A stretch of 44,075 bases of DNA, from the NCBI GenBank assembly GCA_016284265.1, contig JAEEOM010000076.1:68522-112596 (forward strand), read 5' to 3'. The number at the start of each line of letters is the position of its first letter. The first letter of the stretch is position 1. A model generated the notes under the pieces. It saw nothing but the letters and a program-made list of their open reading frames with translations. It did no database searches and was not told the DNA's origin. This DNA is from Bacteroidales bacterium. Lineage in GTDB: Bacteria > Bacteroidota > Bacteroidia > Bacteroidales > UBA932. Positions 1,328 through 33,452 of the stretch are shown in pieces. Made by a program: the position numbers and the translations under genes.

Positions 1328-1333
1328 TCCGCC

Positions 1334-2500
1334 ATGAAACGCTTGCTTTTCCTTCTTTGTCTGGCTCTGCCGCTGCTTCCGGCCTGTTTCCGGGAGATTC
1401 CCAGCGTGGGCGTCGTGACGGTGCAGCTTCGGCTAGACGGGGAACCGTCCGTGCCGGTCGATTTGACCGAACTGGAAGTGCGGTTGCAGAACAAGAGCGC
1501 TGAGTTCTCCTATACGGTGCATCCCGACGCCGACGGCCGGGCGGTCTTCGAAGTGCAACCCGGCAAATATGACGTAGTGGCCTCCGCCTGGTTCCCTGCC
1601 ACCCGCGTGGCGGTCAACGGGGCCAGCGGGGAGTTCCTGCTGACCGATGCGGTCATGGTCGAGATTCCGCTCCACGTGGCCGTCCCCAATCCGTTGATCA
1701 TCCGGGAGTTGTATTTTCATGGCTCGTCGACACTCGAAGGAGCCAATTACACAAAAGATACCTACATTGAGATCTACAACAACGCCGGCCCGGGCGGCCA
1801 GACGCAGTATCTCGATTCCCTCTGCCTGGCCGAAATCTTCCCGTATAACTCGACCACGGGCAACAATGCCTGGGCGGGACGCGACACCATCGCGATTGCC
1901 CAGATGTACTGGATGTTTCCGGGCGACGGGCACAGCTATCCGCTGGCGCCTGGCGAATCGGCCGTGGTCGCCTGTATCGCTGCGGTGGACCACAGCGGCC
2001 GTGCTACGTCCGGCCTGGCGTTGAACCGGGCCCATTTCGGCTGCTGGTCGGAAATCCTGCCGCGTCATGAAATCGCGGCGGGTGTCGTCCCGATGGTCCT
2101 GAACATGACGGGCCAGGGCAACGCCTGGGCGCTGTCGGTCACCAGTCCGGCCGTTGTGATCTTCCGGCCGTCGATCGGCGTAGCTGCCTGGCAGTCTCAG
2201 GCCGCCGTATGGGAGGACTTCGAACCCGGGAAATCTTCCGGCTCGAAATACTGGCACATCGACAAAGACTGGATCCTCGACGGTGTCGAGTGTGTGGATT
2301 CTCCTTCCTCGGCAATCAAGCGTCTGCCCGGGACGGTCGACGCATCTTATGTCTGGTTGCGGTCGGGTCATTACTCGGGCAAATGCGTTACGCGCAGGCT
2401 CGATTTTACGGAAGACGGCATCGACGTTTTCCAGGATACGAACAATTCGGATGCTGATTTCATTCCCGACAGCACCCCTTCCCCCCGGTTGAAGCCATGA
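1334..2500 (+). CDS. DUF4876-like lipoprotein
   Basis: Lipobox LLPAC; NPLIIRELYFHGSSTLEGANYTKDTYIEIYNN segment typical of the family; 6 bp after the receptor stop. Confidence 0.75.
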   Translation: MKRLLFLLCLALPLLPACFREIPSVGVVTVQLRLDGEPSVPVDLTELEVRLQNKSAEFSYTVHPDADGRAVFEVQPGKYDVVASAWFPATRVAVNGASGEFLLTDAVMVEIPLHVAVPNPLIIRELYFHGSSTLEGANYTKDTYIEIYNNAGPGGQTQYLDSLCLAEIFPYNSTTGNNAWAGRDTIAIAQMYWMFPGDGHSYPLAPGESAVVACIAAVDHSGRATSGLALNRAHFGCWSEILPRHEIAAGVVPMVLNMTGQGNAWALSVTSPAVVIFRPSIGVAAWQSQAAVWEDFEPGKSSGSKYWHIDKDWILDGVECVDSPSSAIKRLPGTVDASYVWLRSGHYSGKCVTRRLDFTEDGIDVFQDTNNSDADFIPDSTPSPRLKP

Positions 2501-3915
2501 AAACGCGCCTTGTCATCCTCTGTCTGCTGCTTGTCGTGACGGCGGGCGCCCAGGAACACAACATGGCGCGCCTGACGCAGTCGGATACGAGTTATGTCGA
2601 TGTTTCGATGGGACTGTCCGGAGAGACCGGCCGGTTGAAAGATGTGTATCAACCCGACAAACTGGTTGCGGGAACGCTGGATGCCCGTTCTCGGCGGAAG
2701 CTCGGCCGTGTGAATCTTTTCGGCCATTTCGGCTACGGTTATTCCTATGCAACGGGCAGTACCTGGCGGGGTTGGATCGATCCCTATGAAACGCCGTTCA
2801 TGCTGGCCGATTCGATTGCGGGCAACTTGTCGATGGAACGGTATCGGTTGCAGGCCGGTGCGGGTGTGCCGCTGGCCGGCGGCTGGTCGGCCGGCCTCGA
2901 CCTGGCCTACGATGTGGCGCTGATGGCCAAGCACAAGGATTTACGCAACAAGAACACGGGTATGACCTTCCGTGTGGCGCCCGGTATCTTCTGGCAGGGC
3001 AGTCATGTGGGCGTCGGCTTGGATGCCGGATACGAATATGGCACCGAAAAGGTGGAGTATCTGCAGGTTTCTGAAAACCTGGAACATGTGCTGTTCGACC
3101 TTTATGGTGTCTGGCTGTATCGCGCCAGCGGATTCGGGAGTGCGGAGACGCGCCGGCTCAAGACAAGCGGCCGCGTGTTCGCCGATTTCCAGTTGGGTTT
3201 CCAATGGGGTGAAACGTCGGTCCACAACAATTTCCGGGGTGAATTCGGCCGGAATGCCCAGACGGAGACAGGCTACAACAACCTCCGTCACGGCGATGTC
3301 CGCTCTCTGGCCTGGAGCGACGAACTCTCGGTAGAAATCGGCGACAGTCACCAAATTGAGCTTTCCGGCGAATTTTCCACGATGCAGGGCTTCCGGCCGT
3401 TGCAGCAGCAGGAACTCGATCCCGATTCCCGCATCCGCATCTGGGTGACGTACGGAGATCCCGTGTTCTGCTATTATCGCCGGACCCATCGGGAACAGTT
3501 TGAGTATACATATCTGTCTGCGCAGGATTGGGAGCTGGTGCTGGGCGTGGAAAATGAGGGCATGATGCACGCATATACCGAGTATCCGCGGCGTTTTGCG
3601 CAGCAATTCTCTTCGGTGACGCCGTACCTGGGCGGGAAGATTCCCGTTGGCAAGGCAGGCTCTTTGACCGCCCGGATCGGCTATGCCCATACATACGGGA
3701 CTGAAAACGACGTCTCTGAATGGCAGTTGGCTGAACCGTTGCTGGAGCAATGGGATTATTGGGACGGAGATTCGGTCTTGGCTGGGATCGCCGCAGCGTG
3801 GCGCAAGGACCGGATGTACGTCCAGGCTCGCTATAACATTGTAATTTCCGCCTCTGCCGCTGATAATGACGGCACGCGTCAAGTCGCCGGCCTGACCGTC
3901 GGTTTTATCTTTTAA
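2497..3915 (+). CDS. DUF6850-like outer-membrane beta-barrel protein
   Basis: Signal peptide ...VVTAGAQ; alternating aromatic/Gly strands; ATGA overlap with the upstream gene; neighbour of the DUF4876-like gene. Confidence 0.65.
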   Translation: MKTRLVILCLLLVVTAGAQEHNMARLTQSDTSYVDVSMGLSGETGRLKDVYQPDKLVAGTLDARSRRKLGRVNLFGHFGYGYSYATGSTWRGWIDPYETPFMLADSIAGNLSMERYRLQAGAGVPLAGGWSAGLDLAYDVALMAKHKDLRNKNTGMTFRVAPGIFWQGSHVGVGLDAGYEYGTEKVEYLQVSENLEHVLFDLYGVWLYRASGFGSAETRRLKTSGRVFADFQLGFQWGETSVHNNFRGEFGRNAQTETGYNNLRHGDVRSLAWSDELSVEIGDSHQIELSGEFSTMQGFRPLQQQELDPDSRIRIWVTYGDPVFCYYRRTHREQFEYTYLSAQDWELVLGVENEGMMHAYTEYPRRFAQQFSSVTPYLGGKIPVGKAGSLTARIGYAHTYGTENDVSEWQLAEPLLEQWDYWDGDSVLAGIAAAWRKDRMYVQARYNIVISASAADNDGTRQVAGLTVGFIF

Positions 3916-5909: not shown

Positions 5910-6665
5910 TCAGCCGCCGGCGAAAGCCAGCGTGGCACAGTTCACACGGAAACCGGCCTGGAGGAGCGGATCGGCGGAAGCCGCGAGGGTGGAGCCGGTG
6001 GTGAGGACGTCGTCAATCAAAAGCAAGTGGCGGATGCCGGCTTTTTGGAGCCGGGCTGTACTGACCGGCTGTAGCTGGAAGGCGCCTTGCACATTTTTCG
6101 TTTTGGCGTCACCGCGAAGACGGGTTTGCGTCCGGGTGTAACGGCAACGTTGGAGTAGCGTGGTTTCCAGCGGCAGGTCCATCGCCGACGCGACGCCCCG
6201 GGCGATCTCTTCTGCCTGGTTGTAGCCGCGCTTCCAGCGGCGCAGGGGATGAAGGGGGACCGGCACAACGGCCTGGCAGCGGCTGAACATCCGGCTGCCG
6301 GCCAACTGGGTTCCCAGTAGCCGGCCCATCCGATATCCAAGCTGACACCGGCCGCTGTATTTGATTGCATAGAGTATTTTCCGGTAGTCGCTTTCCGACC
6401 CGAAAAACAGGAGCGCGGCTACCCCTTCCACTTCGAACCGGCGCGCCAGCCGCTCAAATGCTGCATTCTGTCCGATTTCCCATTGATAGGTCAGAGGAAT
6501 CCCCGATAGACAATCTGCGCAGAGGTCCTGCTCTTCAATTGACAGAAACCGACCGCATACGACACACCGCCGTGGAAAGAAGAGTTCCCGCAGCCCCAGG
6601 ATGCCCGAAAGAAAAGGATTGGAAAAGCCCTTGCACATATCGCCCGCCTCAAATAACCCTCGCAA
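5910..6665 (-). CDS. comF: ComF family protein (Zn-ribbon + phosphoribosyltransferase-like)
   Basis: CVVCGRFL...LCADC cysteine pairs; PVPLHPLRRWKRGYNQAEEIARG; LLIDDVLTTGSTL PRPP loop. Start may instead be Met at 6638. Confidence 0.88.
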   Translation of the reverse strand: MRGLFEAGDMCKGFSNPFLSGILGLRELFFPRRCVVCGRFLSIEEQDLCADCLSGIPLTYQWEIGQNAAFERLARRFEVEGVAALLFFGSESDYRKILYAIKYSGRCQLGYRMGRLLGTQLAGSRMFSRCQAVVPVPLHPLRRWKRGYNQAEEIARGVASAMDLPLETTLLQRCRYTRTQTRLRGDAKTKNVQGAFQLQPVSTARLQKAGIRHLLLIDDVLTTGSTLAASADPLLQAGFRVNCATLAFAGG

Positions 6666-12258: not shown

Positions 12259-12266
12259 TACTTTTG
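12259..12266 (+). promoter_or_regulatory. -7 box TACTTTTG for the nuclease gene at 12284
   Basis: Matches TAnnTTTG, 17 nt before the ATG; divergent from the metK promoter. Confidence 0.65.
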
Positions 12267-12283: not shown

Positions 12284-14356
12284 ATGGAGATGAAATTTCC
12301 GAGACTGCTGACCGTGCTTGCCGCAGTGATGCTTCTGCTGGTATCCTGTGACAAACCCGAACCCGAGAAGGAGACCGTCACGGTGTCCGTCTCGCCGGTG
12401 TCCCTATCGTTCCCCACGGAAGGCGGGACCGAAACGATCTCTGTCACTTCCAATGGTTTATGGTATGCAAAAGCCGAGGGATCCTGGCTGATTCTCTCCG
12501 CCACTTCCGGTTCCGGGAACGGCAGCATCCAGGTAACTGCCTCCGCCAATGCAGGAGACGCCCGGAACGGCCAGGTGATCTTCGAGACCGCCGACAATAA
12601 GACCACGGTCAATGTCTCCCAACTGATGTACGTCAAGCCTGATCCGGTGCAGCGCAGCATCAAGGAGGTCCGCGCCCTTTACAAAGGGACCGACTACAAG
12701 ATCACAGACGACATATTCATGGAAGGCACGGTCATCAGTGATTATCGCCGCGACACCGACGGTGGCCTGAACAACTATACTTCAGCCAAGACCATCGTCA
12801 TCTCAGACGGCGAGGCCGGCCTGATGCTCTACTGTTCGGGCGACAACAAGACGTTCGCCCGTGGCCAGAAGGTGCGGGTGCGCCTGCTCGACCAGACCCT
12901 TTCGGTCTACGGCCAGGGTGTGGTCCAGGTCAATGGGCTGCCGCTCGACAATATCCAGTATCTGGGCACGGAAACGCCCCAGGCCAAGGAGATTACCGCC
13001 CTGGAGCTGGTAAGCGGTCAATATGAATGTATGTACGTGGCTGTCAAAGATGTACAGGTCCTCGACGAAGATCTTGGCAAAACTTTCGCTTCCGACTCCG
13101 AGAATACGAGCCTGGCCTTCTCCGACAAGGACGGTGTGAGTTTCGACCTGTTCACCTCGCGCTATGCAACCTTCCGCAGCGAGACCGTTCCTTCGGGCAG
13201 CGGCGTGCTGAAAGGCATCGCCGGCAAGTACGGAGCCCGTTATCAGCTGTCCATTTCCGAAAAGGCCGACTATGCCGGCCTGACCGGTACGCGTTTCTCT
13301 TCGGCGAACTACTTCTACCTGGAGTCGACCGACCGGACGGTCAGCGGCGACGCCGGTACTTTCAACATCAGCCTGGTTTCGTCCGTGGCATGGAAAGCCT
13401 CCTGTTCCAATTCGTCTTTCAGTGTTTCGCCTGCTTCCGGTACCGGCTCCGCGCAGGTCACGGTGACCTACGGTGACAATCCGAGTTCTTCGGAATACCG
13501 CACGGCCGTGATCCGCTTCACCACGGATGATGCATCCGTGACGGACAAGGAACTTCTTCTTACTGTGGTCCAGCAGCCTTTCGAGATGCTGGTCCAGAGC
13601 GAAGTGAAGCCCTGGCTCGAAATGCCTGCCGTCAAGAATGAGGAGGGCAAGGCTTTCTTCAGTCACGACATGACCTGGAAAAACCAGGTTGTGCGCAACT
13701 ATTCTTTCTGGTATGATCTCTCTGGCCGCGTGGCGCTCTGGGTGGCCTATCCGCTCTACAGGGGCATGCTCTCCGGCGTCAAGCGTACCGATAAGTGGGA
13801 ATATGATCCGCTGGTGCCCAAGCGCTATCAGGGAGTCGTGTATACCAGTTACGGAGGCTACGACCGCGGCCATCAGCTGCCGTCTGCCGACCGGCTCTGC
13901 AATGTAGCGGCCAACGAACAGACCTTCTATTTCACGAACATCACGCCGCAGAACGCCGACTTGAACCAGGGGCTCTGGGAACGGCTCGAGGCCCATGTCC
14001 GCGACCGGGTGAATACCTGTGACACACTCTATGTGGTGACGGGCTGTGTGCTGACCACGGAATCCGACCCCACGCCGCAGTATATCAAAGACAACAACGG
14101 CAACGACGTGGCCATCCCCAAGGCTTATTACAAGGTGCTGCTCCGGTATAAGGCCGGGGAAGCCACCGGCGGCTATTCCGCCATCGGCTTCTGGATGGAA
14201 AACAAGCGTTACGGCGACACGTCTCTCTCGAAAGCTTTCGCCCGGACTGTCGACGAGATCGAAACCCTGACGGGCATCGACTTTTTCGTCAATCTGAAAG
14301 ACGAGTACGAAAAGGAAATAGAAGCGAAATACGATGCTACGGCATGGGGGCTATGA
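12284..14356 (+). CDS. BACON / DUF5689-like / BACON / DNA-RNA non-specific endonuclease (NUC1) lipoprotein
   Basis: Lipobox LLVSC; BACON-type repeats (VSPVSLSFPTEGGTETISVTSNGLW...); SIKEVRALYKG...FMEGTVISD; YDRGHQLPSADR catalytic motif and FYFTNITPQNADLNQGLW. Confidence 0.88.
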   Translation: MEMKFPRLLTVLAAVMLLLVSCDKPEPEKETVTVSVSPVSLSFPTEGGTETISVTSNGLWYAKAEGSWLILSATSGSGNGSIQVTASANAGDARNGQVIFETADNKTTVNVSQLMYVKPDPVQRSIKEVRALYKGTDYKITDDIFMEGTVISDYRRDTDGGLNNYTSAKTIVISDGEAGLMLYCSGDNKTFARGQKVRVRLLDQTLSVYGQGVVQVNGLPLDNIQYLGTETPQAKEITALELVSGQYECMYVAVKDVQVLDEDLGKTFASDSENTSLAFSDKDGVSFDLFTSRYATFRSETVPSGSGVLKGIAGKYGARYQLSISEKADYAGLTGTRFSSANYFYLESTDRTVSGDAGTFNISLVSSVAWKASCSNSSFSVSPASGTGSAQVTVTYGDNPSSSEYRTAVIRFTTDDASVTDKELLLTVVQQPFEMLVQSEVKPWLEMPAVKNEEGKAFFSHDMTWKNQVVRNYSFWYDLSGRVALWVAYPLYRGMLSGVKRTDKWEYDPLVPKRYQGVVYTSYGGYDRGHQLPSADRLCNVAANEQTFYFTNITPQNADLNQGLWERLEAHVRDRVNTCDTLYVVTGCVLTTESDPTPQYIKDNNGNDVAIPKAYYKVLLRYKAGEATGGYSAIGFWMENKRYGDTSLSKAFARTVDEIETLTGIDFFVNLKDEYEKEIEAKYDATAWGL

Positions 14357-14400
14357 TGAAAATCAACTATTTACTATATTAAAAACAACCTTTAGACTTT

Positions 14401-17400
14401 ATGAAAAAAACATTTAAGTGTTTTCTGGCGGTCGCAGCTTTCCTGCTGATGATCGTTCCGGCAATGGCCCAGGTGACCACTTCGAGCCTCGCCGGCCAGA
14501 TCGTCGATGAGAGCGGCGAACCGCTCATCGGCGTGGCTGTCGTGGCCGTCCACACGCCTTCCGGCACGCAGTACTACGCTGTGACCAACGAAGACGGACG
14601 CTATGCCATCCAGGGTATGCGTACCGGTGGCCCTTACGAGCTCACCATGTCCCTGATCGGCTGCCAGACGGTGGTCGTTCCCGACATCGTCCTTTCGTTG
14701 GCTGAGACCTACCAGCAGAACGCCGTTCTCAAGACGGCTACCGAGCAGCTGACCGAGGCGATCGTCGTTGCTTCCGCCCTGTCGAAATTCTCCACCGAGA
14801 AGACAGGTGCTGCCACCAACATCACCAACCAGCAGATCACCAACCTGCCGAGTGTGAGCCGCGCCATCACCGACGTTACCCGTCTGTCGCCGTACGGTGG
14901 CAACGGCATGAGCTTCGCCGGTGCCGACGGCCGTACCGCCAACTTCACCGTTGACGGTGCCAACTTCAACAACAACTTCGGTCTGAGTTCCAGCCTGCCT
15001 GGTGGCGGCAACCCGATCTCCATCGACGCCATCGAGGAACTCCAGGTCGTGATCTCGCCCTATGATGTGCGCCAGACCAACTTCATCGGTGGCGGTGTGA
15101 ACGCCATCACCAAATCCGGTACGAACACCTTCAAGGGCAGTGCCTATATCTATCACCGCAACGAATTCCTCCGTGGCGACACCGTGGAAGGCGAGCAGAT
15201 CGGCGGCGCCCGCGCCAAGGACCGCAGCACCACCTACGGCTTCACCCTCGGCGGACCGATCGTGAAGAACAAACTCTTCTTCTTCGTCAACGCCGAATAT
15301 ATCAAGGTTCCGACCATCGTCAACCGCTGGCAAGGTTCCGCCAATGGTGTGGCTGACGCGACCAACTACATCTCCCGCACGAAACTCTCCGACCTGCAGC
15401 GCGCTTCTGAGTTCGTGAAGAGCAAATACGGCTATGACACGGGTTCCTGGACCGACTTCCCGGCCAACGAGAACAACATGAAGATCCTGGCCCGCATCGA
15501 CTGGAACATCAACAACATGCACAAGCTCGCCCTCCGCTACAACTACACGAAGAACAACGTGTGGAATTCGCCGAACGGCAGCTCCATGGACGGTGGCACG
15601 CGTATGAGCGGCGCCCGTATGTCGCAGTACTCGATGTCCTTCGCCAACTCGATGTATTCGATGAACAACCTGGTGAATACCTGGTCTCTTGACCTCAACA
15701 GCCGCCTGAGCGACAACCTGTCCAACCAGTTCCTTGCCACGTTCTCGAAACTGGATGACGTGCGCGGTACCAACTCCGAAGAGTTCCCGTTCATCGACAT
15801 CCTCGACGACACCAGCTCCAATAACTACATGGCCCTCGGCTATGAGCTGTTCACCTGGAACAACGCCGTCCACAACACCATCGCAAACGTGAAGGACGAC
15901 ATCACCTGGTATAAGGGTTCCCACAAGGTGACCTTCGGTGCCAACTACGAGTATCAGATGGCTGACAACCAGTATATGCGCAATGGTTCTGGCTATTACC
16001 GCTACAAGACACTCGATGACTTCCTGAACGGCCGTATCCCCGAGGTCGTCTGCTTGACCTACGGCTATGACGGCGAGCAGTATCCTGCAGCCCGCGTCCA
16101 GTTCCACAAGGCCGGTGTCTATGCCCAGGATGACTGGAACGTGACCGACCGCTTCAAGCTGACCTACGGTCTCCGCATTGACGGTCTGTTCTTCGACAAT
16201 GGCGACCTGATGACCAATGAGGCCATCATGAAGCTGAGCTACTATCCCAGGAAGTACAACTACGAGGAAACCCATATCGATACCGGCAAATGGCCCAACT
16301 CCAGCGTGACCTTCTCGCCGCGCGTGGGCTTCAGCTGGGATGTCTTCGGTGACAAGAGCCTCAAGGTCCGTGGTGGTACGGGTCTGTTCTCCGGCCGTCT
16401 GCCGCTCGTGTTCTTCACCAACATGCCGACCAACGGCGGTCTGGTGCAGTACCAGGCGCAGATCAATGCCAAGAACGCCGCTTCCAGAGGCTTCTCGATG
16501 AATGTGTTCGACGGCGGTCTCGTGACCGATTCCAACGGCAAGGCCACCATCGAGGCGCTCTACAACAAACTGATCAGTCTCGGTTATCCGAGCACGGTTT
16601 CGCCGAAGGACGGTACGGTTCCTTCCGCAGTCAACGGTGTCGATCCGAAGTTCAAGATGCCGCAGGTCTGGAAGTCCTCGCTGGCGTTCGACTACAGCTT
16701 CCCTACCTCCTTCCCGTTCACCTTCTCGGCTGAAGGTATCTTCAACAAGACCATCAATGCAGTGGCCATCTCCGACTGGAGCATGAAGGATGTAGCCGGT
16801 TTCGCCCGCTTCAACGGTGCCGACAACCGTCCGATCTACCCGAGCAACTTCCGCAGCACCACCAAGGCCTTCGTTCTGGAGAATACGGACCAGGGCTACG
16901 GCTGGTCGGCCAGCGCCCAGATCAACGTGCGTCCGATCGAGAGCCTGAATTTCATGGCGGCCTACACGCACACCGTGAACAAGGAAATCACCGGTATGCC
17001 GGGTTCCGCTGCTGAATCGGCTTTCACCTATGTGCCTACCAACGAAGGCCCGAACTACATCAAACTGCACAACTCGCAGTATGTAACCCCTGACCGCGTG
17101 GTCGCTTCCCTCACGCACCACGACAAGAGCGGCAACCACTATAGCTTCATTTATGAGGCATGGCGTGGCGGTTACAATTACAGCTACATGACTTCCAACG
17201 ACATGAACGGCGACGGCTACAACTACGATGCCCTCTATATCCCGACCGACGAGGAAGTCAGCACCCGTAACTTCCGCTTCGTCTCGGCCGACGACCAGTC
17301 CCGTTTCATGGACTTTGTCCACAACGACAAATACCTGAGCACGCACCAGGGCCAGTATGCCGAAGGTTACAGCGTGTACAGCCCGTGGGTCCACCGCGTG

Positions 17401-17703
17401 GACTTCAGCTACAAGCACGACTTCACGGTGAAGTGTGGCAAGAACACCAACACCCTGCAGCTCTGCCTCGACCTGAAGAACGTCCTCAACCTGTTCAACT
17501 CCAGCTGGGGTGTGAGCAAGTACCTCAACCCGTCCATCGGTTCCGATGCCCGCATCCTGAAGTATGAAGGTGTCGATGCGGAAGGTTATGCTACCTTCTC
17601 CACACCGGCCGCCATCAGCGGCAGCACCCAGACCTTCGTCCCGAACCACGCGCTCGGACAGTGCTGGTATGCTTCTGTCGGTATCAAGTATCTGTTTAAC
17701 TAA
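14401..17703 (+). CDS. Oar-like TonB-dependent receptor with N-terminal carboxypeptidase-regulatory-like domain
   Basis: Signal peptide; QVTTSSLAGQIVDESGEPLIGVAVVAVHTPSGTQYYAVTNEDGRYAIQGM; plug ITNLPSVSRAITDVTRLSPYGG...FTVDGANFNNNFG; long barrel. Confidence 0.92.
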   Translation: MKKTFKCFLAVAAFLLMIVPAMAQVTTSSLAGQIVDESGEPLIGVAVVAVHTPSGTQYYAVTNEDGRYAIQGMRTGGPYELTMSLIGCQTVVVPDIVLSLAETYQQNAVLKTATEQLTEAIVVASALSKFSTEKTGAATNITNQQITNLPSVSRAITDVTRLSPYGGNGMSFAGADGRTANFTVDGANFNNNFGLSSSLPGGGNPISIDAIEELQVVISPYDVRQTNFIGGGVNAITKSGTNTFKGSAYIYHRNEFLRGDTVEGEQIGGARAKDRSTTYGFTLGGPIVKNKLFFFVNAEYIKVPTIVNRWQGSANGVADATNYISRTKLSDLQRASEFVKSKYGYDTGSWTDFPANENNMKILARIDWNINNMHKLALRYNYTKNNVWNSPNGSSMDGGTRMSGARMSQYSMSFANSMYSMNNLVNTWSLDLNSRLSDNLSNQFLATFSKLDDVRGTNSEEFPFIDILDDTSSNNYMALGYELFTWNNAVHNTIANVKDDITWYKGSHKVTFGANYEYQMADNQYMRNGSGYYRYKTLDDFLNGRIPEVVCLTYGYDGEQYPAARVQFHKAGVYAQDDWNVTDRFKLTYGLRIDGLFFDNGDLMTNEAIMKLSYYPRKYNYEETHIDTGKWPNSSVTFSPRVGFSWDVFGDKSLKVRGGTGLFSGRLPLVFFTNMPTNGGLVQYQAQINAKNAASRGFSMNVFDGGLVTDSNGKATIEALYNKLISLGYPSTVSPKDGTVPSAVNGVDPKFKMPQVWKSSLAFDYSFPTSFPFTFSAEGIFNKTINAVAISDWSMKDVAGFARFNGADNRPIYPSNFRSTTKAFVLENTDQGYGWSASAQINVRPIESLNFMAAYTHTVNKEITGMPGSAAESAFTYVPTNEGPNYIKLHNSQYVTPDRVVASLTHHDKSGNHYSFIYEAWRGGYNYSYMTSNDMNGDGYNYDALYIPTDEEVSTRNFRFVSADDQSRFMDFVHNDKYLSTHQGQYAEGYSVYSPWVHRVDFSYKHDFTVKCGKNTNTLQLCLDLKNVLNLFNSSWGVSKYLNPSIGSDARILKYEGVDAEGYATFSTPAAISGSTQTFVPNHALGQCWYASVGIKYLFN

Positions 17704-17720
17704 TCCATAGACGATCCGAT

Positions 17721-19217
17721 ATGAAAATCAAAAATATCATTGCAGCTCTTCTCGCAGTGCTCGCCATCACCGTCTCCTGTGCGGTTGAGGAAGATCACTA
17801 TCTGAGCCAGGTCAAGTTGTCTACGACGTACGTGGCCATTTCCATGGGCGGCGGTTCCACGCCTGTCACGATTGACGCCACTGACAGCTGGTCCATCACC
17901 GGTATGCCTTCCTGGCTGACCGTCAGCCCTGCTTCCGGTTCGGCCGGCAGCGGCAACATTTCTTTCTCCGCGGGTTCTACGCTCGACGGCCGTACGGCCG
18001 AACTCGTGCTGACTTGCGGAGGCAAGACCCAGAACATCAACGTGATCCAGGGTCTGGCCACGGTCTCCAAAGCTACTTGCGCCGAAGTGATTGCCGGCCC
18101 CGAGTCCAAGACCTACCTGGTGACAGGTATCTGCACGCGGATTGCCAACACGAACTATGGCAACTGGTATCTCGACGACGGCACGGGTGAGATCTACATC
18201 TATGGTACGGTCAATGCCGCCGGCAACTACTCCTGGTCGAGCTTCAACATCGAGGTCGGTGACGAGGTAACGGTCCAGGGCCCGAAGACCGTTTACAACG
18301 GAACGGTCGAGCTGGTCGACGCCACGTTCATCAGCATCAACAAGTCGCTCATCAAGATCGCGGAAATCGACCCTGCGGACGCTGTCCTGCCGATTGAAGG
18401 CGGCGATTTTACGGTGAAACTCAACAACAAGGGTACCGGTCTGTATATCGACATTCCCGAGAATGCGAAGTCCTGGCTTTCCATCGCCTCGATCTCCGGC
18501 AACACCGTGAAGTTCCACGCGGCTCCCAACGAAGGCGGCGACCGTGGAACGACGCTTGTGCTCAAAACGAAGAGCGGCAGCAAGGAATATACCTGCGAGC
18601 AGGCGCTCACCCAGAAGGGTGCGATTATCCAGTGCTCTATCGCCGATTTCCTCTCCGCTGCTGTCGGTGATACGCAGTATCGCCTGACCGGTGTGATTAC
18701 CAGCGTGGCCAACACCAACTATGGCAATGTCTACATCCGCGACTGGTCGGGTGAGACCTATGTCTATGGCATCGGCGCCAAGGGTGACTTTACGACTCTC
18801 GGCCTCAAGGTCGGTGACGTCGTGACGCTCGTCGGCAAACGGGGTGCTCACAACGGCAATCCGCAAATGACCGGCGGCCAGCATGAAAGCCACATTTCAG
18901 TCACGGAAGTAACCATCGCGGAGTTCCTGAGCAAACCGGACGACAAGAACGTTTACTACATGGTGACCGGTACACTCGACGAGATCGCCAACGCCACCTA
19001 TGGTAACGTTTACATCAAGGACGCCGAGGGCAACCGCCTCTATTCCTACGGCTGCTATCCGGGTTGGGGTGCCACCGGCGATGCCCGCAAGAACGCCATC
19101 GCCAATCTGGACATCCACGTGGGTGACCAGTTGACCATCATTGGTGCGAAGACCACCCACAACGATCAGCCTCAGATCAACAACGGTGTCTACTTCAGCC
19201 ACGTGCCGGCGAACTAG
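17721..19217 (+). CDS. BACON-domain lipoprotein with three OB-fold-like (DUF5689/YhcR-like) repeats
   Basis: Lipobox ITVSC; BACON-like N-terminus; repeats YLVTGICTRIANTNYGNWYLDDGTG / YRLTGVITSVANTNYGNVYIRDWSG / YMVTGTLDEIANATYGNVYIKDAEG, each followed by VGD..T..G. Confidence 0.8.
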   Translation: MKIKNIIAALLAVLAITVSCAVEEDHYLSQVKLSTTYVAISMGGGSTPVTIDATDSWSITGMPSWLTVSPASGSAGSGNISFSAGSTLDGRTAELVLTCGGKTQNINVIQGLATVSKATCAEVIAGPESKTYLVTGICTRIANTNYGNWYLDDGTGEIYIYGTVNAAGNYSWSSFNIEVGDEVTVQGPKTVYNGTVELVDATFISINKSLIKIAEIDPADAVLPIEGGDFTVKLNNKGTGLYIDIPENAKSWLSIASISGNTVKFHAAPNEGGDRGTTLVLKTKSGSKEYTCEQALTQKGAIIQCSIADFLSAAVGDTQYRLTGVITSVANTNYGNVYIRDWSGETYVYGIGAKGDFTTLGLKVGDVVTLVGKRGAHNGNPQMTGGQHESHISVTEVTIAEFLSKPDDKNVYYMVTGTLDEIANATYGNVYIKDAEGNRLYSYGCYPGWGATGDARKNAIANLDIHVGDQLTIIGAKTTHNDQPQINNGVYFSHVPAN

Positions 19218-19244
19218 TTGGTTGTAGCAAGCGCATTATGTAAT

Positions 19245-19279
19245 CTCATCCCCCTCACCGCGAGGGGGATGAGTTTTTT
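19245..19279 (+). terminator. Intrinsic terminator
   Basis: CTCATCCCCCTC-accgc-GAGGGGGATGAG-TTTTTT, perfect 12-bp stem. Confidence 0.9.
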
Positions 19280-19325
19280 GTAAACACCTGACAGTCAAGT
19301 GTGTCCGTTGCGGCGAAAAAAGTGT

Positions 19326-19333
19326 TATCTTTG
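19326..19333 (+). promoter_or_regulatory. -7 box TATCTTTG, 7 nt before ATG 19341
   Basis: Matches TAnnTTTG. Confidence 0.7.
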
Positions 19334-19340
19334 TGGTACA

Positions 19341-20927
19341 ATGAAAAGGTTATTTTCTCTGGTCCTGCTGCTGCTCGCATTGCCGGTGGTGGCACAAGTG
19401 ACGACATCCTCGATCGGTGGTCAGATCGTGGACGATAACGGCCCGATCGAGGGCGTGACCGTGGTGGCCATCCACCAGCCTTCGAACACGCAGTATTATG
19501 CCACGACGAATGCCCGCGGCTGGTACCAGTTGCTGGACGTCCTGCCGGGCGGACCCTATACGATCCGGATCCACTATTTCAGCTATGATCCGCTGACCGT
19601 CCGAAACCTCTATACCTTTGCGGGCGAACTGATTGTGGTGGACGCCGATCTGGAGGCCGGAACAACCGATGTCCGCCGCGACGAGGCGGCAACCTCGCTC
19701 CGGATCGGATCCGATCTGGTCGGTGGTGTGGTTCCCGTAGCGCCCGGAACATACGATCTGGTAGGCCAGCGCGTCTATACGGCGGTTCCCTTCGACGTCC
19801 GGCAGGAGGCAGCGCTCGACGGAGTGTCCCGGCTGCAGATGACCCCCGTCGGAACCAATCGTTTCCACGGTTCGGCCTATGGTTATTTTGGTTCGGCCGG
19901 GTTGGCAGGAGCTACCGTATCGACGCCGCTTTTCAACGAAGATTTTGTCCTTTTCGGTGGACTGCAGTACGATTTTTCCGGTGTTTTTTCCGGCGCGGGC
20001 CGTATTGATGCACGATTGGGCTCCTCAAACCGACTGGATCTTTCCGGCGGCCGCCTGGCCGGTGAAAACTGGGCAATGGGTGGCTTCACCACGCAGATTG
20101 GCGACGGACGCGCATCCAACCGGTTGCAAGCTGGCTGGTCCGGCTCGCCGACAGCCAAGGCCTGGCACGCTTCCGACGATTTCACGCTGTCCGCTGGTTC
20201 CCAGCGCCTGCTCTTCGGCGTACAGACGACGTATGGCATGTTGCCGGATTCCACTTTCAACCGGATTGGCTTCTATCTGCAGGATGCCGTCCGTCTCGGG
20301 CGTCGGATGACATTGCAGGCAGGCTTGCGATTCGACTTTCCGTTCGCCTTTTCTCCCCGGGTGAGTCTGCGCTATGATGTGCTGGGCACCGGTGCCCTGG
20401 TGCTTCGCGCCGGCTCGGCAGTTTATGGCGTCCACGGCGAAGGAACCGTATGGAAGAATATGGCGGCGGCCGATTTCCGACTGCCCGCCCGCTTCGTGCT
20501 GTCGCTCGAGGGCGTTTATGGCCAGGCCTGGCGCAAGCCTTTCTACATTTCCACCCGCAACATCCTCGACAGCCGCTACGCCCTGACGGCCCGGCTGGAA
20601 CGGCCCTTCGCCGAGAATCTCTGGGCAGTCGCGTCCTATACCCGCAGTGACGGCGCGCTCTCCGACCGGGTAATCGGTGGCCTGTCCTACACGGCGAACT
20701 ATCTCGGTCATCTGGCCACAACCCTGGCTGTCCTTTACTACGGAAACAACTACGTCGATAACTTCTCTCCCGCTTCCGTCTCCTGGACCAACAGCGTTGA
20801 GGCCCGCTTGACGCAAGACTTGATCCTCTCCCTCGGCGGCCGCGACCACACCCTCCAACTCACCGGCTACTTCCGCAAAGCGCCCCTGGGCACCGAATGG
20901 CTCGCCGGCCTCCGCTATTATTTATAG
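19341..20927 (+). CDS. Plug-reduced TonB-receptor-like outer-membrane barrel, paralogue of 14401..17703
   Basis: QVTTSSIGGQIVDDNGPIEGVTVVAIHQPSNTQYYATTNARGWYQLLDV parallels the upstream receptor; PFDVRQ...TPVGTNRFHGSAYGYFGS parallels PYDVRQ...TKSGTNTFKGSAYIYHRN; most of the plug is missing. Confidence 0.75.
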   Translation: MKRLFSLVLLLLALPVVAQVTTSSIGGQIVDDNGPIEGVTVVAIHQPSNTQYYATTNARGWYQLLDVLPGGPYTIRIHYFSYDPLTVRNLYTFAGELIVVDADLEAGTTDVRRDEAATSLRIGSDLVGGVVPVAPGTYDLVGQRVYTAVPFDVRQEAALDGVSRLQMTPVGTNRFHGSAYGYFGSAGLAGATVSTPLFNEDFVLFGGLQYDFSGVFSGAGRIDARLGSSNRLDLSGGRLAGENWAMGGFTTQIGDGRASNRLQAGWSGSPTAKAWHASDDFTLSAGSQRLLFGVQTTYGMLPDSTFNRIGFYLQDAVRLGRRMTLQAGLRFDFPFAFSPRVSLRYDVLGTGALVLRAGSAVYGVHGEGTVWKNMAAADFRLPARFVLSLEGVYGQAWRKPFYISTRNILDSRYALTARLERPFAENLWAVASYTRSDGALSDRVIGGLSYTANYLGHLATTLAVLYYGNNYVDNFSPASVSWTNSVEARLTQDLILSLGGRDHTLQLTGYFRKAPLGTEWLAGLRYYL

Positions 20928-28261: not shown

Positions 28262-30898
28262 ATGAAACCCTTCCGACGGATTACGCTTGCCGTGCTGCTG
28301 GCGCTGTGCTGCAGCACATTGTCCTGGGGGCAGAATGCCCCGAAGGACAGCGTGTTCCGTCTGGTTCAGGCCCAGCGGGCTGAACAGTACGAGAAGTACG
28401 GTCAGAATTACCGGCTCGTCCAGGGCCACGCCCGTTTTCTCCACAACGACACCTATCTGCTCTGCGACTCCGCTTCCTGGAACGTGGATGCCAAGTATAT
28501 CGAGGCCTACGGCAACGTGCAGATCATCCAGAACAAGACGATGCTCAAGAGCGAGGAGATGATGTACTGGATCGACGAGAGCCGGGCCGTTTTCCGCGGT
28601 CCGATGGTGGAACTGTTCGACAAGGACGGCAACCGGCTCCGGACGTCGAAGCTGACCTACAACACGAAAGACAGTGTCGCCGTCTTTGAATTCGGCGGAG
28701 CACTCAAGGACAAGGACGGCAACGTGATCGAGAGCGCCCGTGGCACGTACGACGGCAAGGAGAGTCTCTTCACCTTTGAGGAACGTGTGGAAATCTACAT
28801 GGATACGATCGAGATGAAGACACAGACCCTGCGCTACTTTACCGAAGAGGAGCGGGCTTATTTCGGAAAGAACACCTATGCCTGGAAAGACGAGGGATTC
28901 CTGCGGGCAGACGGCGGTTCGTACGACCGCGGGCAGCATATTGTCCGTTTTTCCGACCATGTCTTCCTGTTCGATCCCACCTACGACGCCTGGGCCGACG
29001 AGGTTGTTTACGATCAGTTGACCGGAGCTGCGGATCTCTACCAGAACGCACAGGTCCTAGATACGGCCAACAAGAGCATCTTCCTGGGTGATCATCTGCA
29101 GTACGCGCCTGCTACCGATTCTTTGACCGACCGGGGCTTGCTGACCGGTGACCCGGCCATCATCTATTATGGAGAGAATGAAAACCATGTAGTCGATACG
29201 CTTTATGTCCGGGCCGATACCTTCTATGTCTATGCCATACCGCGTTCCGATATTCCGGCCGCGGAACTGAAGGAGGCCCAGAAACGGATCGAGGATATCC
29301 GGTACGATGCCCTGTCCAAAAAACGGGAGGAGGATGCTGCCGCCCAGGAGCAGGAACGCATCAAGAAAATGCGCGAGGTAGGCAAGTTGCCGCCTGAATG
29401 GGTAGAAAAGGCGCAGAAGGCCACGGCGGATTCGCTTGCGGCGCTTTCCCGGCTCGATTCCCTGGTGACAGCGGGGGCCGTCGATTCGCTGGTTGCTGCC
29501 TCCGATTCTCTGCGGGCTTCACGGCAAGCCGTAGATTCTCTCCTCAAAGTCGGATTCGATTACATCAGTGCCCAGGAAGCGGCTGCTTCCGGTTCCGATT
29601 CAACCTCAGGCAAGCCTGGCTCCGATTCATCTGCCGTTACGCCTGCCGTTAAAGCAGATCCGCCCCGCGATACCACGCCTGTCCGGTATGTCCATGCCTG
29701 GAATCATGTCAAGCTGTTCCGCAGCGACCTGCAGGCTGTCTGCGACTCCATTGTCTTTACCGAAGTAGATTCTGTCGCTCGTCTCTACGGGTCGCCGGCC
29801 CTATGGAACGAAATCCGCAACCAGCTCACCGCCGAGGAGATGCATCTCCTGCTGCACGACGGGGCCCTCGAACGGGGCAGCATGATTACCAATGCCTGGC
29901 TGATTTCGGAGCAGGATACCGTCCACTACAACCAGATCAAGAGTACCGAGATGCAGGGCTGGTTCCGGGACAACAAACTCTTCCGTTTCGATGCCCTGGG
30001 CGGTGTCTCCGCCATCTTCTACATGGCCGAAGACGAGGTGATTACGACCATCAACGTTAAAGAATCGAAGTCGCTGACAGCGGCCCTTAAGGACAATAAG
30101 GCCCAGCGGCTGCTGTATGTCGATGCCATCAAGAGCGACGTTTATCCCGTAGGCGAGCTGGAGCCGTCCAAGCAGCGTCTCAAGGATTTCAAATGGCGGG
30201 GTGACGAACGGCCTGACTCGCCGCAGCAAATCACGCGACGGAAGGTGCGCCAGACGGAGCGCCCCCAGTATGAAGGGATGCGCCGGCCCCTCTACCGAGA
30301 GACCAACAAGTTTTTCGACAACTACATGCTCGAACTCTTCGAGAAGATCGACGCTGAGAAGAAAGCCGAATATGAACGCCGTCAGGCCGAACAGGACAGC
30401 TTGGCTCGCGTGGCTGAGCTTGCCCAACTGCAGGCCGCACGCGATTCCATCGTCGCAGCTGAAGCCGCCCTGACCCTTCGTGACAGCGTGGCGGTCATCG
30501 CTCTCAGCGACAGTACCCGCGTCGTGCCTGGCGATACGACGCACATCATGCCCGCTGATTCCGCTCTCGTCATGCCCGGCGTGACCGGGCATCCAGACAC
30601 TGATACCCTCGACATGCAGCGGGTGCTTCTCCCCGAGACTGATGCGGTTCGTCCGCCCCGCCCGCAACGTGATACTGCCGACAGGCACGTCGCTCCCGGT
30701 GCGACCGGGGATCTCGCCCCGGCCTCTCCCGAAACGGTCGTTCACACCGAGCAGCTCTCCCGCGCGGAAAAGCGCGCCATGCGCCGTGCTGAACGTCTGG
30801 CTCGCCGGGAAGCCCGCAAAGCCGCCCGTGCTGCCCGCCGGGCCGCTCGTGAGGCTGCCCGCATTGCCCGCCAGGCGGCAAAAACCGAAAAGAATTAA
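28262..30898 (+). CDS. OstA-like (LptA/LptD N-terminal-like) protein with low-complexity Arg/Ala-rich C-terminus
   Basis: YRLVQGHARFLHNDTYLLCDSASWNVDAKYIEAYGNVQIIQNKTMLKSEEMMYW; tail RAEKRAMRRAERLARREARKAARAARRAAREAARIARQAAK. Confidence 0.85.
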   Translation: MKPFRRITLAVLLALCCSTLSWGQNAPKDSVFRLVQAQRAEQYEKYGQNYRLVQGHARFLHNDTYLLCDSASWNVDAKYIEAYGNVQIIQNKTMLKSEEMMYWIDESRAVFRGPMVELFDKDGNRLRTSKLTYNTKDSVAVFEFGGALKDKDGNVIESARGTYDGKESLFTFEERVEIYMDTIEMKTQTLRYFTEEERAYFGKNTYAWKDEGFLRADGGSYDRGQHIVRFSDHVFLFDPTYDAWADEVVYDQLTGAADLYQNAQVLDTANKSIFLGDHLQYAPATDSLTDRGLLTGDPAIIYYGENENHVVDTLYVRADTFYVYAIPRSDIPAAELKEAQKRIEDIRYDALSKKREEDAAAQEQERIKKMREVGKLPPEWVEKAQKATADSLAALSRLDSLVTAGAVDSLVAASDSLRASRQAVDSLLKVGFDYISAQEAAASGSDSTSGKPGSDSSAVTPAVKADPPRDTTPVRYVHAWNHVKLFRSDLQAVCDSIVFTEVDSVARLYGSPALWNEIRNQLTAEEMHLLLHDGALERGSMITNAWLISEQDTVHYNQIKSTEMQGWFRDNKLFRFDALGGVSAIFYMAEDEVITTINVKESKSLTAALKDNKAQRLLYVDAIKSDVYPVGELEPSKQRLKDFKWRGDERPDSPQQITRRKVRQTERPQYEGMRRPLYRETNKFFDNYMLELFEKIDAEKKAEYERRQAEQDSLARVAELAQLQAARDSIVAAEAALTLRDSVAVIALSDSTRVVPGDTTHIMPADSALVMPGVTGHPDTDTLDMQRVLLPETDAVRPPRPQRDTADRHVAPGATGDLAPASPETVVHTEQLSRAEKRAMRRAERLARREARKAARAARRAAREAARIARQAAKTEKN
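30569..30595 (+). repeat. Dispersed 27-bp hairpin repeat, copy C (gtcatgcccggcgtgaccgggcatcca)
   Basis: Perfect 8-bp stem ATGCCCGG/CCGGGCAT; 22/27 to the reverse complement of copy B; encodes VMPGVTGHP. Confidence 0.6.
30689..30715 (+). repeat. Degenerate copy D of the hairpin repeat (gtcgctcccggtgcgaccggggatctc)
   Basis: 21/27 to the reverse complement of copy B; encodes VAPGATGDL. Confidence 0.45.
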
Positions 30899-30908
30899 TC
30901 TGATAACC

Positions 30909-31601
30909 ATGAGATACCGGTTTGTCATCTTGTTTTTATTGATCTGCAGTCTGCCTGCCGGAGCACAGAGTCGCGACACCATCCTGACCCGGATGAATGC
31001 CGTCAAACTCTATCCGGATTGTATCTACGGCTATTGCGCGCTCTCCAGTGCAGAGGATTCCCGGGCAGAGGCACTTGCAGACCTCGCCTGCCGTGTGGAG
31101 GCGTTCCTGAAGGAGAAAGGATTCCAGCACCTCCGCGACCTGTCCCAATGTCCCGACGGTATGGTGCAGACCCTGGTCTATACCAAGGGGACCGATTATT
31201 TCCGGACCCTGGTTTATGTGGATAAGGCGGCGCTCTCGCAGTTGGAAAGCGATCTTTCCCGGAAAAACGAAGCCCAGGGACAGTATCGGGCCGTCAGCAG
31301 TTTGAAAGAACGGCTGGCCGGCGTGACGACGTACGGGGAACTGGAAGCTTTGCTTGCAGACAAGGAGGTGGCTACGTCCGTGCTTCGGGGTCCACTGACC
31401 TTCGATACGCCCCAGGACTATGTGGACCGGGGCTATCTGGTGTATTACGATCACAAGACGAGCCGGATTCTCCGTGTCATGACGCCTCGCAACGATGACG
31501 GTATCCGCTTCGATGTGAAGACGGGCGCGCCGGGTCATCCCCGGATGGCGCCGCAGGGAGAGATCGAATGGATATGTTTCAAAGAACCGGTAAAAAAGTG
31601 A
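30909..31601 (+). CDS. Secreted protein of unknown function
   Basis: Signal peptide FLLICSLPAGAQ; adjacent to 31606 and 32574 genes on the same strand. Confidence 0.7.
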   Translation: MRYRFVILFLLICSLPAGAQSRDTILTRMNAVKLYPDCIYGYCALSSAEDSRAEALADLACRVEAFLKEKGFQHLRDLSQCPDGMVQTLVYTKGTDYFRTLVYVDKAALSQLESDLSRKNEAQGQYRAVSSLKERLAGVTTYGELEALLADKEVATSVLRGPLTFDTPQDYVDRGYLVYYDHKTSRILRVMTPRNDDGIRFDVKTGAPGHPRMAPQGEIEWICFKEPVKK

Positions 31602-31605
31602 GGCG

Positions 31606-32577
31606 ATGAAAAAGACACTCCTGATCGTTCTGCTATGGCTGGCTGCCGCTGCGGCGTGGGCACAGCCGGTGCGTTTTTTTGTCGGCGAGGGCATGGAAAA
31701 TGGCCCGCTGAAGGAAAAGGTCAACACCAACGTATCGTTGCTTTTGACGGAGATCAATGATGCCTATCATGCCTCGCGGGCTCTCGATCTCTCCGCTGTC
31801 TCCATCACCCCCAGGGCTGTCCGTCTGTTGTCGATGCTCTGGCGGAATCGCCCGTTCCATTGTGATGAACTCCGCGTGGTCGACCGGATTTTACGTACCT
31901 TCGATGGCGGGTATCAATTGCGGAACATCCCGATGGAAATGACGGAACCCGGCGGGAAAGTCCTCTATCCGGAACTGGTTGTCGAATTGGATGCCGGCGG
32001 AACCATCACGCTCGTCAATTTTGCCATCGAAGCCAATCTCTACCGGAAGGTTGTCCAGCCCGGTTCTGGAGAAAGGGAAATGAACCACCGGAAGATCATG
32101 CTCGACTACGTGGAACAATTCAGGACCTCCTACGACCGGAAGGACCTCAATTTCCTGGAGTTGTTTTTCTGCGATGACGCCCTGATCATTACCGGCAGGG
32201 TGGTCAAGAAGTATGTACGCGAGCCGGGTGCCATTTTGGAAAAAGCGGTCTTATACCCGCAATATGCCAATTCCGAATATCTGGCCAATCTCCGGCGTGT
32301 CTTTTCACAGATCCGGTACAGCCGGACGTATTTCAAAGACATCCAAGTGACCCGTCATCCTGTGGAGGAGGGTGTTTACGGTGTCAATATCAAAATGGGA
32401 TACGAGTCCGCGGTGGATTCTGACGAGGGTTGCGTATTCCTGCTTTGGGACTTCCGCGACGGAAACCGTCCCCAGATTCTTGTCCGTACCTGGCAGCCCC
32501 GCTGGCTGGATGATGCACACATCCAGGCACTCAGCGAAAGTCAGATTATCAACGTCAACAGTTTCAAGTTTCCATGA
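31606..32577 (+). CDS. Secreted protein with NTF2-like domain
   Basis: Signal peptide AAAAAWAQ; RKIMLDYVEQFRTSYDRKDLNFLELFFCDDALIITGRVV resembles NTF2/SnoaL-like domains. Confidence 0.65.
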   Translation: MKKTLLIVLLWLAAAAAWAQPVRFFVGEGMENGPLKEKVNTNVSLLLTEINDAYHASRALDLSAVSITPRAVRLLSMLWRNRPFHCDELRVVDRILRTFDGGYQLRNIPMEMTEPGGKVLYPELVVELDAGGTITLVNFAIEANLYRKVVQPGSGEREMNHRKIMLDYVEQFRTSYDRKDLNFLELFFCDDALIITGRVVKKYVREPGAILEKAVLYPQYANSEYLANLRRVFSQIRYSRTYFKDIQVTRHPVEEGVYGVNIKMGYESAVDSDEGCVFLLWDFRDGNRPQILVRTWQPRWLDDAHIQALSESQIINVNSFKFP

Positions 32578-33452
32578 AACGGTTTTTCTTCTTACTGGCC
32601 TTACTGGCCTTGCCGTTCCTGCTGCAGGCACAGGACAAGCGTCTTGTCGTCCGCCGTTTCGATATGAATCAGGGCGATTTGCGCGCCAAGGCCGATCCGG
32701 TCTATGACAAGACCCACAAACCAGCCGCCCTCGTCGAAATCGTTTTTACCGACAGGGATTCCATCCGCATCGAAGGGAATATCGTGGGGAACCCGGAACA
32801 TGACCCCGGGAAATGGGCAGTGTATATGCCGGAAGGCGCGCAGTGGATTGATTTGTCCGCGGCAGGATATGCTCCGGTCCGTTTCGCTTTTCCTGCGGAA
32901 ACCCCGCTGCTCTCGGCCCATACCTATCTGCTTGAGCTGGGCGTAAAAACAAGCCGGTCCAGTTCCGTCAATCCGATGTGGACGCTGGTAATGCCCACGT
33001 TCAGCTACAACCAGTCGCAGTTGTCTTACGGCTTGATGCTGGGCCTCGGCAGGAAAAACGGCGGCTACGTCCACGCCAAGACGGATTTCCACTTCGGGAT
33101 CAATCCTTCGCTTTCCTGCGATGCCGACGGTAATATCCAGGGTGTCAAGGGCTGGTTTTCCGGCGAACCTCACAAGAGCCGTTTTGCCGTTACGGCCGGA
33201 TATCTGCGCCAGCTTGTGCAACCGCTCTACGTCTTTGTGGGCGGCGGCTACGGCAGCCGCATTCTCGCCTGGGAGATGTACGGAGCCGAAGGCAGTTACG
33301 ATCTCGTACGGGTCGCCCCCAGTTCCTTTACCGGCGTTGAGGCCGAACTCGGCCTGATTTTCCGCCTTGGCGGGTTTGCCCTTTCCGCCGGCGTCCAGAC
33401 CAATCAGTTCCGATACTACGAAGCCAACGTGGGAATTGGCGTGATGTTCTAA
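32574..33452 (+). CDS. PEGA-like N-terminal domain + outer-membrane barrel-like protein
   Basis: Signal peptide LPFLLQAQ; ATGA overlap with previous gene; GGGYGSRILAWE..., terminal GIGVMF. Confidence 0.6.
   Translation: MKRFFFLLALLALPFLLQAQDKRLVVRRFDMNQGDLRAKADPVYDKTHKPAALVEIVFTDRDSIRIEGNIVGNPEHDPGKWAVYMPEGAQWIDLSAAGYAPVRFAFPAETPLLSAHTYLLELGVKTSRSSSVNPMWTLVMPTFSYNQSQLSYGLMLGLGRKNGGYVHAKTDFHFGINPSLSCDADGNIQGVKGWFSGEPHKSRFAVTAGYLRQLVQPLYVFVGGGYGSRILAWEMYGAEGSYDLVRVAPSSFTGVEAELGLIFRLGGFALSAGVQTNQFRYYEANVGIGVMF

Follow-up and report, generated by a model that had tools for sequence, protein, structure and literature searches.

The DNA analyzed here (the window) is a stretch of 44,075 nucleotides from a Bacteroidales bacterium (assembly GCA_016284265.1, contig JAEEOM010000076.1), in which a first-pass annotation had proposed a locus for capture and import of extracellular nucleic acid. 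The locus comprises genes for a nuclease lipoprotein, a TonB receptor (Oar1), a lipoprotein with OB repeats (OB lipoprotein) and a receptor paralogue (Oar2). All four open reading frames were found again, consecutive and on the + strand. The nuclease lipoprotein (12284..14356, +; 690 amino acids) carries the lipobox LVSC(22)DKPEPEKE, and Pfam confirms the domain order given for it: BACON, DUF5689 (residues 125-329; 12656..13270, +; 5.7e-32), BACON and NUC1 (Endonuclease_NS, PF01223; residues 468-673; 13685..14302, +; 1.5e-47) with a DRGH motif at residues 527-530. The NUC1 domain is complete (162.5 bits vs. a cut-off of 23) and aligns with Anabaena NucA at 6.4e-22; NucA, Serratia nuclease, EXOG and EndoG are PDB relatives that span it entirely. 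Residues R528, G529, H530, N552 (within TN..PQ) and E569 (within LE) are invariant among 17 aligned relatives. Because of these whole-length alignments and invariant residues, the domain is very probably an active nuclease. DUF5689 is present in the window as a domain inside this protein, and Pfam identifies no separate DUF5689 lipoprotein among the four proteins. The same domain is common to the Riemerella M949_1556 lipoprotein family, and NCBIfam NF052645 matches residues 203-341 at 3.5e-8, far under the family cut-off.

The oar1 gene (14401..17703, +) follows after a gap of 44 nucleotides and encodes 1100 amino acids with a signal peptide, a CarboxypepD_reg domain, a TonB-box-like segment, a plug and a barrel. 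OMP_b-brl_4 (PF25183, Oar-type) matches at 2.5e-51 and 175.5 bits (cut-off 30), in agreement with the Oar-like receptor of the first-pass annotation. The Pfam Plug match is weak (19.1 bits, under the cut-off of 23.9), the Oar1 profile gives a match to the colicin I receptor (1.3e-5) that covers plug and first strands, and a PDB search with the single Oar1 sequence returned zero matches. The segment TEAIVVA (residues 118-124; 14752..14772, +), absent from Oar2, was judged by eye to be a putative TonB box; L117, E119, V122 and A124 are nearly invariant in 25 sequences. With its barrel above the cut-off and a plug present, Oar1 is classified by sequence as a TonB-dependent receptor of the Oar type. 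A SusD-like protein, already reported as missing, was matched neither among the four proteins nor in the scanned neighbors.

Only 17 nucleotides separate oar1 from the gene for the OB lipoprotein (17721..19217, +; 498 amino acids; lipobox TVSC(20)AVEEDH). Its three OB repeats, as previously recognized, are mutually homologous (1e-17 to 1e-23); the single BACON domain assigned earlier has to be corrected to two (Pfam), which gives the order BACON, OB1, BACON, OB2, OB3. OB1 (residues 117-208; 18069..18344, +) matches tRNA_anti-codon over residues 150-199 at 9.8e-6 (25.9 bits, slightly under the Pfam cut-off of 27), and relatives from OB–NUC1–EEP modules exceed the OB family cut-off (39.7 and 44.8 bits). 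OB2 (residues 301-392; 18621..18896, +) shows a marginal match to archaeal RPA32, with RMI2 and tRNA_anti matches in relatives, and is followed directly by OB3 (residues 393-498; 18897..19214, +). The structural model consists of tandem beta domains (predicted local distance difference test score, pLDDT, 85.8). Foldseek searches with the whole model yielded long multi-domain chains as top matches, with root-mean-square deviations of ~20 Å or more; rank 2 is a HIN protein bound to double-stranded DNA (template modeling score 0.18), which is a mere hint. HIN proteins are tandem OB folds. In both lipoproteins the lipobox cysteine is followed by acidic residues (DKPEPEKE and AVEEDH), a feature that fits surface display in Bacteroidetes.

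A Bacteroidetes-type -7 promoter box, TACTTTTG, is located 5' of the nuclease gene (12259..12266, +); the TANNTTTG box stands 25 nucleotides before the nuclease start in the window and 27-34 nucleotides before it in seven relatives. The OB gene is followed by a predicted intrinsic terminator with a 12-pair stem and a T6 tail (19245..19279, +), and most relatives show a similar hairpin and T run. Further downstream a second -7 box, TATCTTTG (19326..19333, +), is the candidate for a separate oar2 promoter, with boxes in most relatives. Since a terminator and then a new promoter box precede oar2, the predicted transcription unit is nuc-oar1-ob and Oar2 belongs to a unit of its own. A single four-gene operon is ruled out on the same grounds. 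L032 departs from the hairpin pattern of the relatives, its Oar2 beginning six nucleotides past the OB gene. The longest oar2 reading frame runs from GTG 19299, but ATG 19341 is the more likely start because of the strong terminator after the OB gene and the TANNTTTG box just before 19341. The resulting protein (19341..20927, +; 528 amino acids) is genus-restricted and homologous to Oar1 (E 3e-37) as far as approximately residue 663 of the latter. Pfam detects CarboxypepD_reg and weak barrel matches in 19299-20927. Oar2 has kept little of the plug and nothing of the TonB-box-like segment, and its barrel part is homologous to Oar1; the earlier description of a plug-reduced paralogue is appropriate. 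Of the two features expected in a TonB-dependent receptor, a plug and a TonB box, Oar2 possesses neither. Its AlphaFold model (pLDDT 39 from 12 sequences) was unusable.

Relatives of the window organism largely preserve the gene arrangement metK (divergent) – nuclease – Oar1 – OB – Oar2 – threonine-aldolase-like gene. Oar1 is 88-92% identical in the window clade, vs. 82-92% for metK, and a much faster drift is seen in the nuclease (~59-70%), the OB protein (~46-84%) and Oar2 (~55-73%). The nuclease adjoins Oar1 in all 15 genus genomes with an Oar1 at least 87% identical, and also in G025 (65%). The OB protein is a mosaic: in G026, G004 and G034 OB2/OB3 have been replaced (17-30% identity) and OB1 retained (76-85%), while G003 and G022 have a replaced OB1 (36-38%) and retain the remainder. 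Such module exchange may change ligand preference. In L039, L042, L043, L040 and L041 a different OB-like type has been swapped in at position 1 or 2-3, next to an Oar1 of ~90% identity. Six genus genomes (G010, G013, G018, G021, G029 and G031) harbor an OB–NUC1–EEP module at a separate locus, and none of the six has an Oar1-linked nuclease. Since the genomes concerned fall in clades, this pattern is suggestive of replacement and does not have the weight of a statistical test.

A scan of GTDB species genomes recovered at least 80 Oar1 loci, of which 80 were analyzed. Oar1 is 66-91% identical in these loci (best segment; nearly all full length), and carriers include Prevotella/Segatella, Muribaculaceae, Proteiniphilum, Bacteroides sp. 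UBA939, Carboxylicivirga, Draconibacterium, Mariniphaga and others, among them the cultured species Segatella albensis, Draconibacterium aestuarii and Carboxylicivirga sediminis. The OB gene lies directly 3' of oar1 in 77 of the 80 loci (77 of 78 where the position is visible), typically after 15-28 nucleotides. Of the three exceptions, two lie at contig ends and the third, L101, is genuine: its locus (L101:2925-6269) is the sole one with sufficient downstream sequence yet without an OB lipoprotein. Across the order the OB protein is 42-61% identical and has the canonical BACON-OB-BACON-OB-OB layout. From 119 genomes drawn evenly, for the most part with a single one per family, four (the window's own among them) contained the OB protein at E<1e-20, and three of these four also contained a close Oar1 (at least 64% identical). 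The pair is thus patchy but tightly linked. Since gene order is conserved within the genus and the core pair throughout the order, the four-gene arrangement is not a product of chance. Co-occurrence in relatives, on which the first-pass annotation had staked its proposal, holds across Bacteroidales for Oar1 and OB together; the nuclease is absent from most Oar1-OB loci. The conserved core is Oar1-OB, and the nuclease is a lineage-specific accessory; its status as a core component is ruled out by its absence from most loci. Giant BACON/OB proteins of 1279-1746 amino acids adjoin the pair at L075:14977-22893 and L098:4577-9817.

The enzymes beside the pair belong to several families. NUC1 was found there by script in 17 order-wide loci, as well as in L060 and L098, which lie outside the script's distance rules; it is located upstream in the window clade and elsewhere also downstream. 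Endonuclease_1 neighbors the pair in L118, L120 and L134, the versions in L118 and L120 bearing DUF5689 and a tail for the type IX secretion system (T9SS). Phosphodiest (nucleotide pyrophosphatase/phosphodiesterase) is present in eight loci and in L165, and an EEP enzyme (Exo_endo_phos_3) often follows a downstream NUC1 (L066, L071, L072, L074, L079, L083, L094 and L123). In L067, L123, L068 and L074 we found BACON-OB–NUC1 fusion proteins whose OB part belongs to the OB-lipoprotein family (E 1e-11 to 1e-27), so the two predicted functions are united in one protein. Away from the pair the same enzyme families are rare in the flanks examined (L082 and another in L119 are examples); the enrichment was assessed from counts without correction for phylogeny. 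No glycan-active enzyme stands next to the pair in the loci inspected, only nuclease/nucleotidase families. In the NUC1 tree, 15 of 46 branches of which are open, the fused form of the window forms one clade that includes the L154 NUC1. The downstream form needs several changes, and a single origin for all placements is not upheld; other placements are partly resolved and the count of independent recruitments is not fixed. An EEP enzyme as a member of the window operon was also ruled out, the nearest one in the same genome being ~17 kb upstream. At L154:5950-8689 the NUC1 lipoprotein adjoins a protein with DUF5689 and DUF5017, two domains that are reported together in Riemerella RA0C_RS04920 (PMC8459023).

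A link to DNA uptake emerges from L163 (L163:3918-15534; genome G061, sister genus), where one operon encodes an Oar (36% identical to Oar1), an OB lipoprotein, NUC1, EEP, a CarboxypepD_reg barrel of 1029 amino acids and a DUF5689 protein. This composite operon joins two otherwise separate systems. The CarboxypepD_reg barrel has relatives elsewhere in the class (E down to 1e-131); of nine loci inspected with barrels of this type, eight have a DUF5689 lipoprotein as the partner and six have EEP adjacent. Close counterparts of the barrel and DUF5689 genes are paired in Flavobacteriia, usually beside EEP. Four of the partner DUF5689 lipoproteins also carry choice-of-anchor J, and one, in L190, passes the threshold of the NCBI family that takes its name from M949_1556, to judge by the prefix probably a Riemerella locus tag. 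A protein of the same DUF5689/choice-of-anchor-J family is also encoded just upstream of Oar1-OB in L125. In Riemerella anatipestifer, markerless deletions of RA0C_RS04915/RS04920 abolish DNA uptake by transformation (PMC8459023), and tonB mutants transform less (PMC8383284). The evidence that the Flavobacteriia counterparts are of the RA0C_RS04915/RS04920 type is strong but indirect, the match being based on gene order, domain make-up and the family NF052645, not on Riemerella sequences. The Riemerella genes resemble the window locus in that a CarboxypepD_reg outer-membrane barrel and a DUF5689 lipoprotein, whose domain recurs in the window nuclease, share an operon; an EEP nuclease is often adjacent, and in L163 counterparts of the two genes share one operon with Oar-OB-NUC1. 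They differ in that Oar1 is of another barrel family beyond its N-terminal part, and in that the Riemerella-type lipoprotein consists of DUF5689 and choice-of-anchor J instead of BACON/OB repeats and has a demonstrated role in transformation. The Riemerella-type barrel family was not detected in G000; it is present in L163.

Taken together, the Oar1-OB locus is probably a surface machine for the capture, cutting and TonB-powered import of nucleic acid, mainly for nutrition. Gene content, linkage throughout the order, the recurring enzyme neighbors, the fusion proteins and the conserved nuclease residues are direct observations; we infer surface exposure, nucleic-acid binding, import, energizing by TonB and nutritional use. 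The OB lipoprotein, anchored at the surface beside Oar1, would capture DNA, RNA or fragments thereof via its OB repeats and pass them to Oar1, a TonB-dependent channel through which they would reach the periplasm. The tethered NUC1 lipoprotein would cut long polymers to permit entry, a role that Endonuclease I, EEP nucleases or nucleotide pyrophosphatases may take in other lineages. Oar2, plug-less and separately transcribed, would be accessory. The likely use would be the scavenging of phosphorus, nitrogen and nucleosides from lysed cells in a herbivore gut. Enzyme recruitment in other lineages, the BACON-OB–NUC1 fusions and the Riemerella transformation genes strengthen a nucleic-acid substrate, and the OB similarity to tRNA_anti, RMI2 and archaeal RPA32 was counted in its favor. 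A wider claim is tentative and, in our estimation, slightly less likely than not: that Oar1-OB is a dedicated Bacteroidales outer-membrane importer of nucleic acid, a counterpart of the polysaccharide utilization loci (PULs), in which an OB-repeat lipoprotein replaces SusD, several nuclease families have been added independently and the logic is common with the Riemerella transformation gate. Position and conservation of the OB lipoprotein would fit the SusD role.

Several points weigh against nucleic acid as the substrate. Of the 80 order-wide loci, ~50 show no recognized enzyme beside the pair, and Phosphodiest enzymes have many substrates. The RPA32 match of OB2 is marginal (E 0.0013, or 0.03 with a wider profile). 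OB folds bind sugars and proteins too, and the OB lipoprotein is acidic (isoelectric point 4.9 overall, 4.3 for OB1), so non-specific electrostatic binding of nucleic acid is unlikely. Good alignment of Oar1 with the Riemerella-type barrel is confined to the CarboxypepD_reg region and a portion of the plug; Oar1 is outside that family, and the Riemerella precedent is therefore one of analogy and co-location. Finally, the TonB-dependent transporter of Myxococcus called Oar exports a protease instead of importing (PMC6434023).

Other explanations were weighed. Import of another ligand (a glycan, vitamin or metal complex) by Oar1-OB, with the enzymes as chance or regional neighbors, would agree with the acidity of the OB protein, with the many loci that lack an enzyme neighbor and with the ability of OB and BACON domains to bind glycans; several nucleic-acid-related enzyme families at one place, the fusion proteins and the independent L163 operon would hardly arise by chance, and we regard this explanation as unlikely. 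We give about the same small weight to a gate for natural transformation, along the lines proposed for the Riemerella barrel and its DUF5689 lipoprotein, in which the OB lipoprotein and Oar1 would bring long DNA to the periplasm for ComEC and the nuclease would make the entry ends. The Riemerella barrel and DUF5689 lipoprotein deletions (PMC8459023) and the co-location of homologous genes in L163 and L125 speak in its favor, as does a gene in the window for a ComF-like phosphoribosyltransferase with a double zinc ribbon (5910-6665, -; 6 kb upstream of the nuclease). It is the only competence gene recognized in the scanned part of the window, however, and transforming DNA would not survive a strong non-specific nuclease at the surface. 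ComEC had no match in the window's own genome (assembly 88% complete), and in the window's genus (G001-G023) the reading frame with the ComEC (Competence domain) match mostly has a length of only ~350-390 amino acids vs. ~700 in other families; transformation is therefore less likely than nutrition for the window organism.

Secretion offers a further analogy. PopC secretion in Myxococcus requires Oar and TonB/ExbB/ExbD (PMC6434023) and Oar1 falls within the OMP_b-brl_4 (Oar-type) barrel family, so that Oar1 might be the exporter that brings the OB lipoprotein or nuclease to the surface. Both proteins, however, carry a standard lipoprotein signal in which the cysteine is followed by acidic residues, the enzyme neighbor in L118/L120 has its own T9SS tail, most genomes have Oar1-OB without a nuclease, and the enzyme pattern would be left unexplained; export is very improbable. 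Still less credit is due to a surface defense or matrix system, in which the tethered nuclease would destroy phage or competitor DNA or the extracellular DNA of biofilms and the OB protein would be an adhesin. A tethered non-specific nuclease and OB modules swapped among relatives, as is often the case in adhesins and defense genes, would suit such a role, but the conservation of Oar1 is that of housekeeping metK and not of a defense gene, a TonB receptor would be superfluous, and no defense genes were recognized around the locus. The defensive use of the nuclease mentioned in the first-pass annotation thus found no specific support.

A nucleic-acid import system built on Oar1-OB would resemble the SusC/SusD PULs in having a TonB-dependent barrel with CarboxypepD_reg, a surface lipoprotein encoded after it and a surface endo-acting hydrolase. 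In contrast to these, the window locus has a BACON/OB lipoprotein and nucleic-acid-cutting enzymes, and is without SusD, a SusC-family match or a glycoside hydrolase. The label "PUL-like" is accordingly apt for the way the locus would work and not for membership, since SusD and glycan enzymes are absent. In BtuB-BtuG (PMC10404256) the TonB receptor likewise has a partner lipoprotein at the surface that is not related to SusD, but lipoprotein fold and ligand are unrelated and no such enzymes are adjacent. Myxococcus xanthus Oar (PMC6434023) is the plug-containing TonB-dependent barrel that names the family; it is needed for PopC secretion, and an OB lipoprotein partner is not reported there. 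Sediment Bacteroidota have prevalent extracellular nucleases and use DNA as a nutrient, as shown by isotope probing (PMC8289736); no outer-membrane import system is described in that study, the text of which mentions neither TonB nor SusC. The parts of the window locus all belong to known families, and BtuB/BtuG is a precedent for a TonB receptor with a non-SusD lipoprotein. The literature searched, outside of which lay subscription papers and preprints, describes neither an Oar-OB pair nor a Bacteroidales nucleic-acid utilization locus. Extracellular nucleases of the ExeM/NucH type also combine OB-type and catalytic domains, but they are single secreted enzymes without a dedicated receptor; a weak match to them was seen in the DUF5689 region of one relative only.

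Two other regions of the window deserve mention. At 2-3915 a TonB barrel, a DUF4876 and a DUF6850 protein are encoded in a row on one strand, resembling a second receptor-lipoprotein operon, and a peptidase S46 gene follows. At 30642-33452 three consecutive + open reading frames of ~300 amino acids each have no Pfam match at 0.001.

The passage of DNA and RNA across the outer membrane of Bacteroidota is largely unexplained, one transposon screen having yielded two genes without a mechanism. The locus described here supplies a conserved receptor-lipoprotein pair, present in cultured species, for the direct study of uptake, binding and structure. If our reading is true, nucleic acids would join the substrates of SusCD-like pairs, and the pair would provide a route for the recycling of phosphorus and nucleosides by gut and sediment bacteria, perhaps with a bearing on gene uptake.

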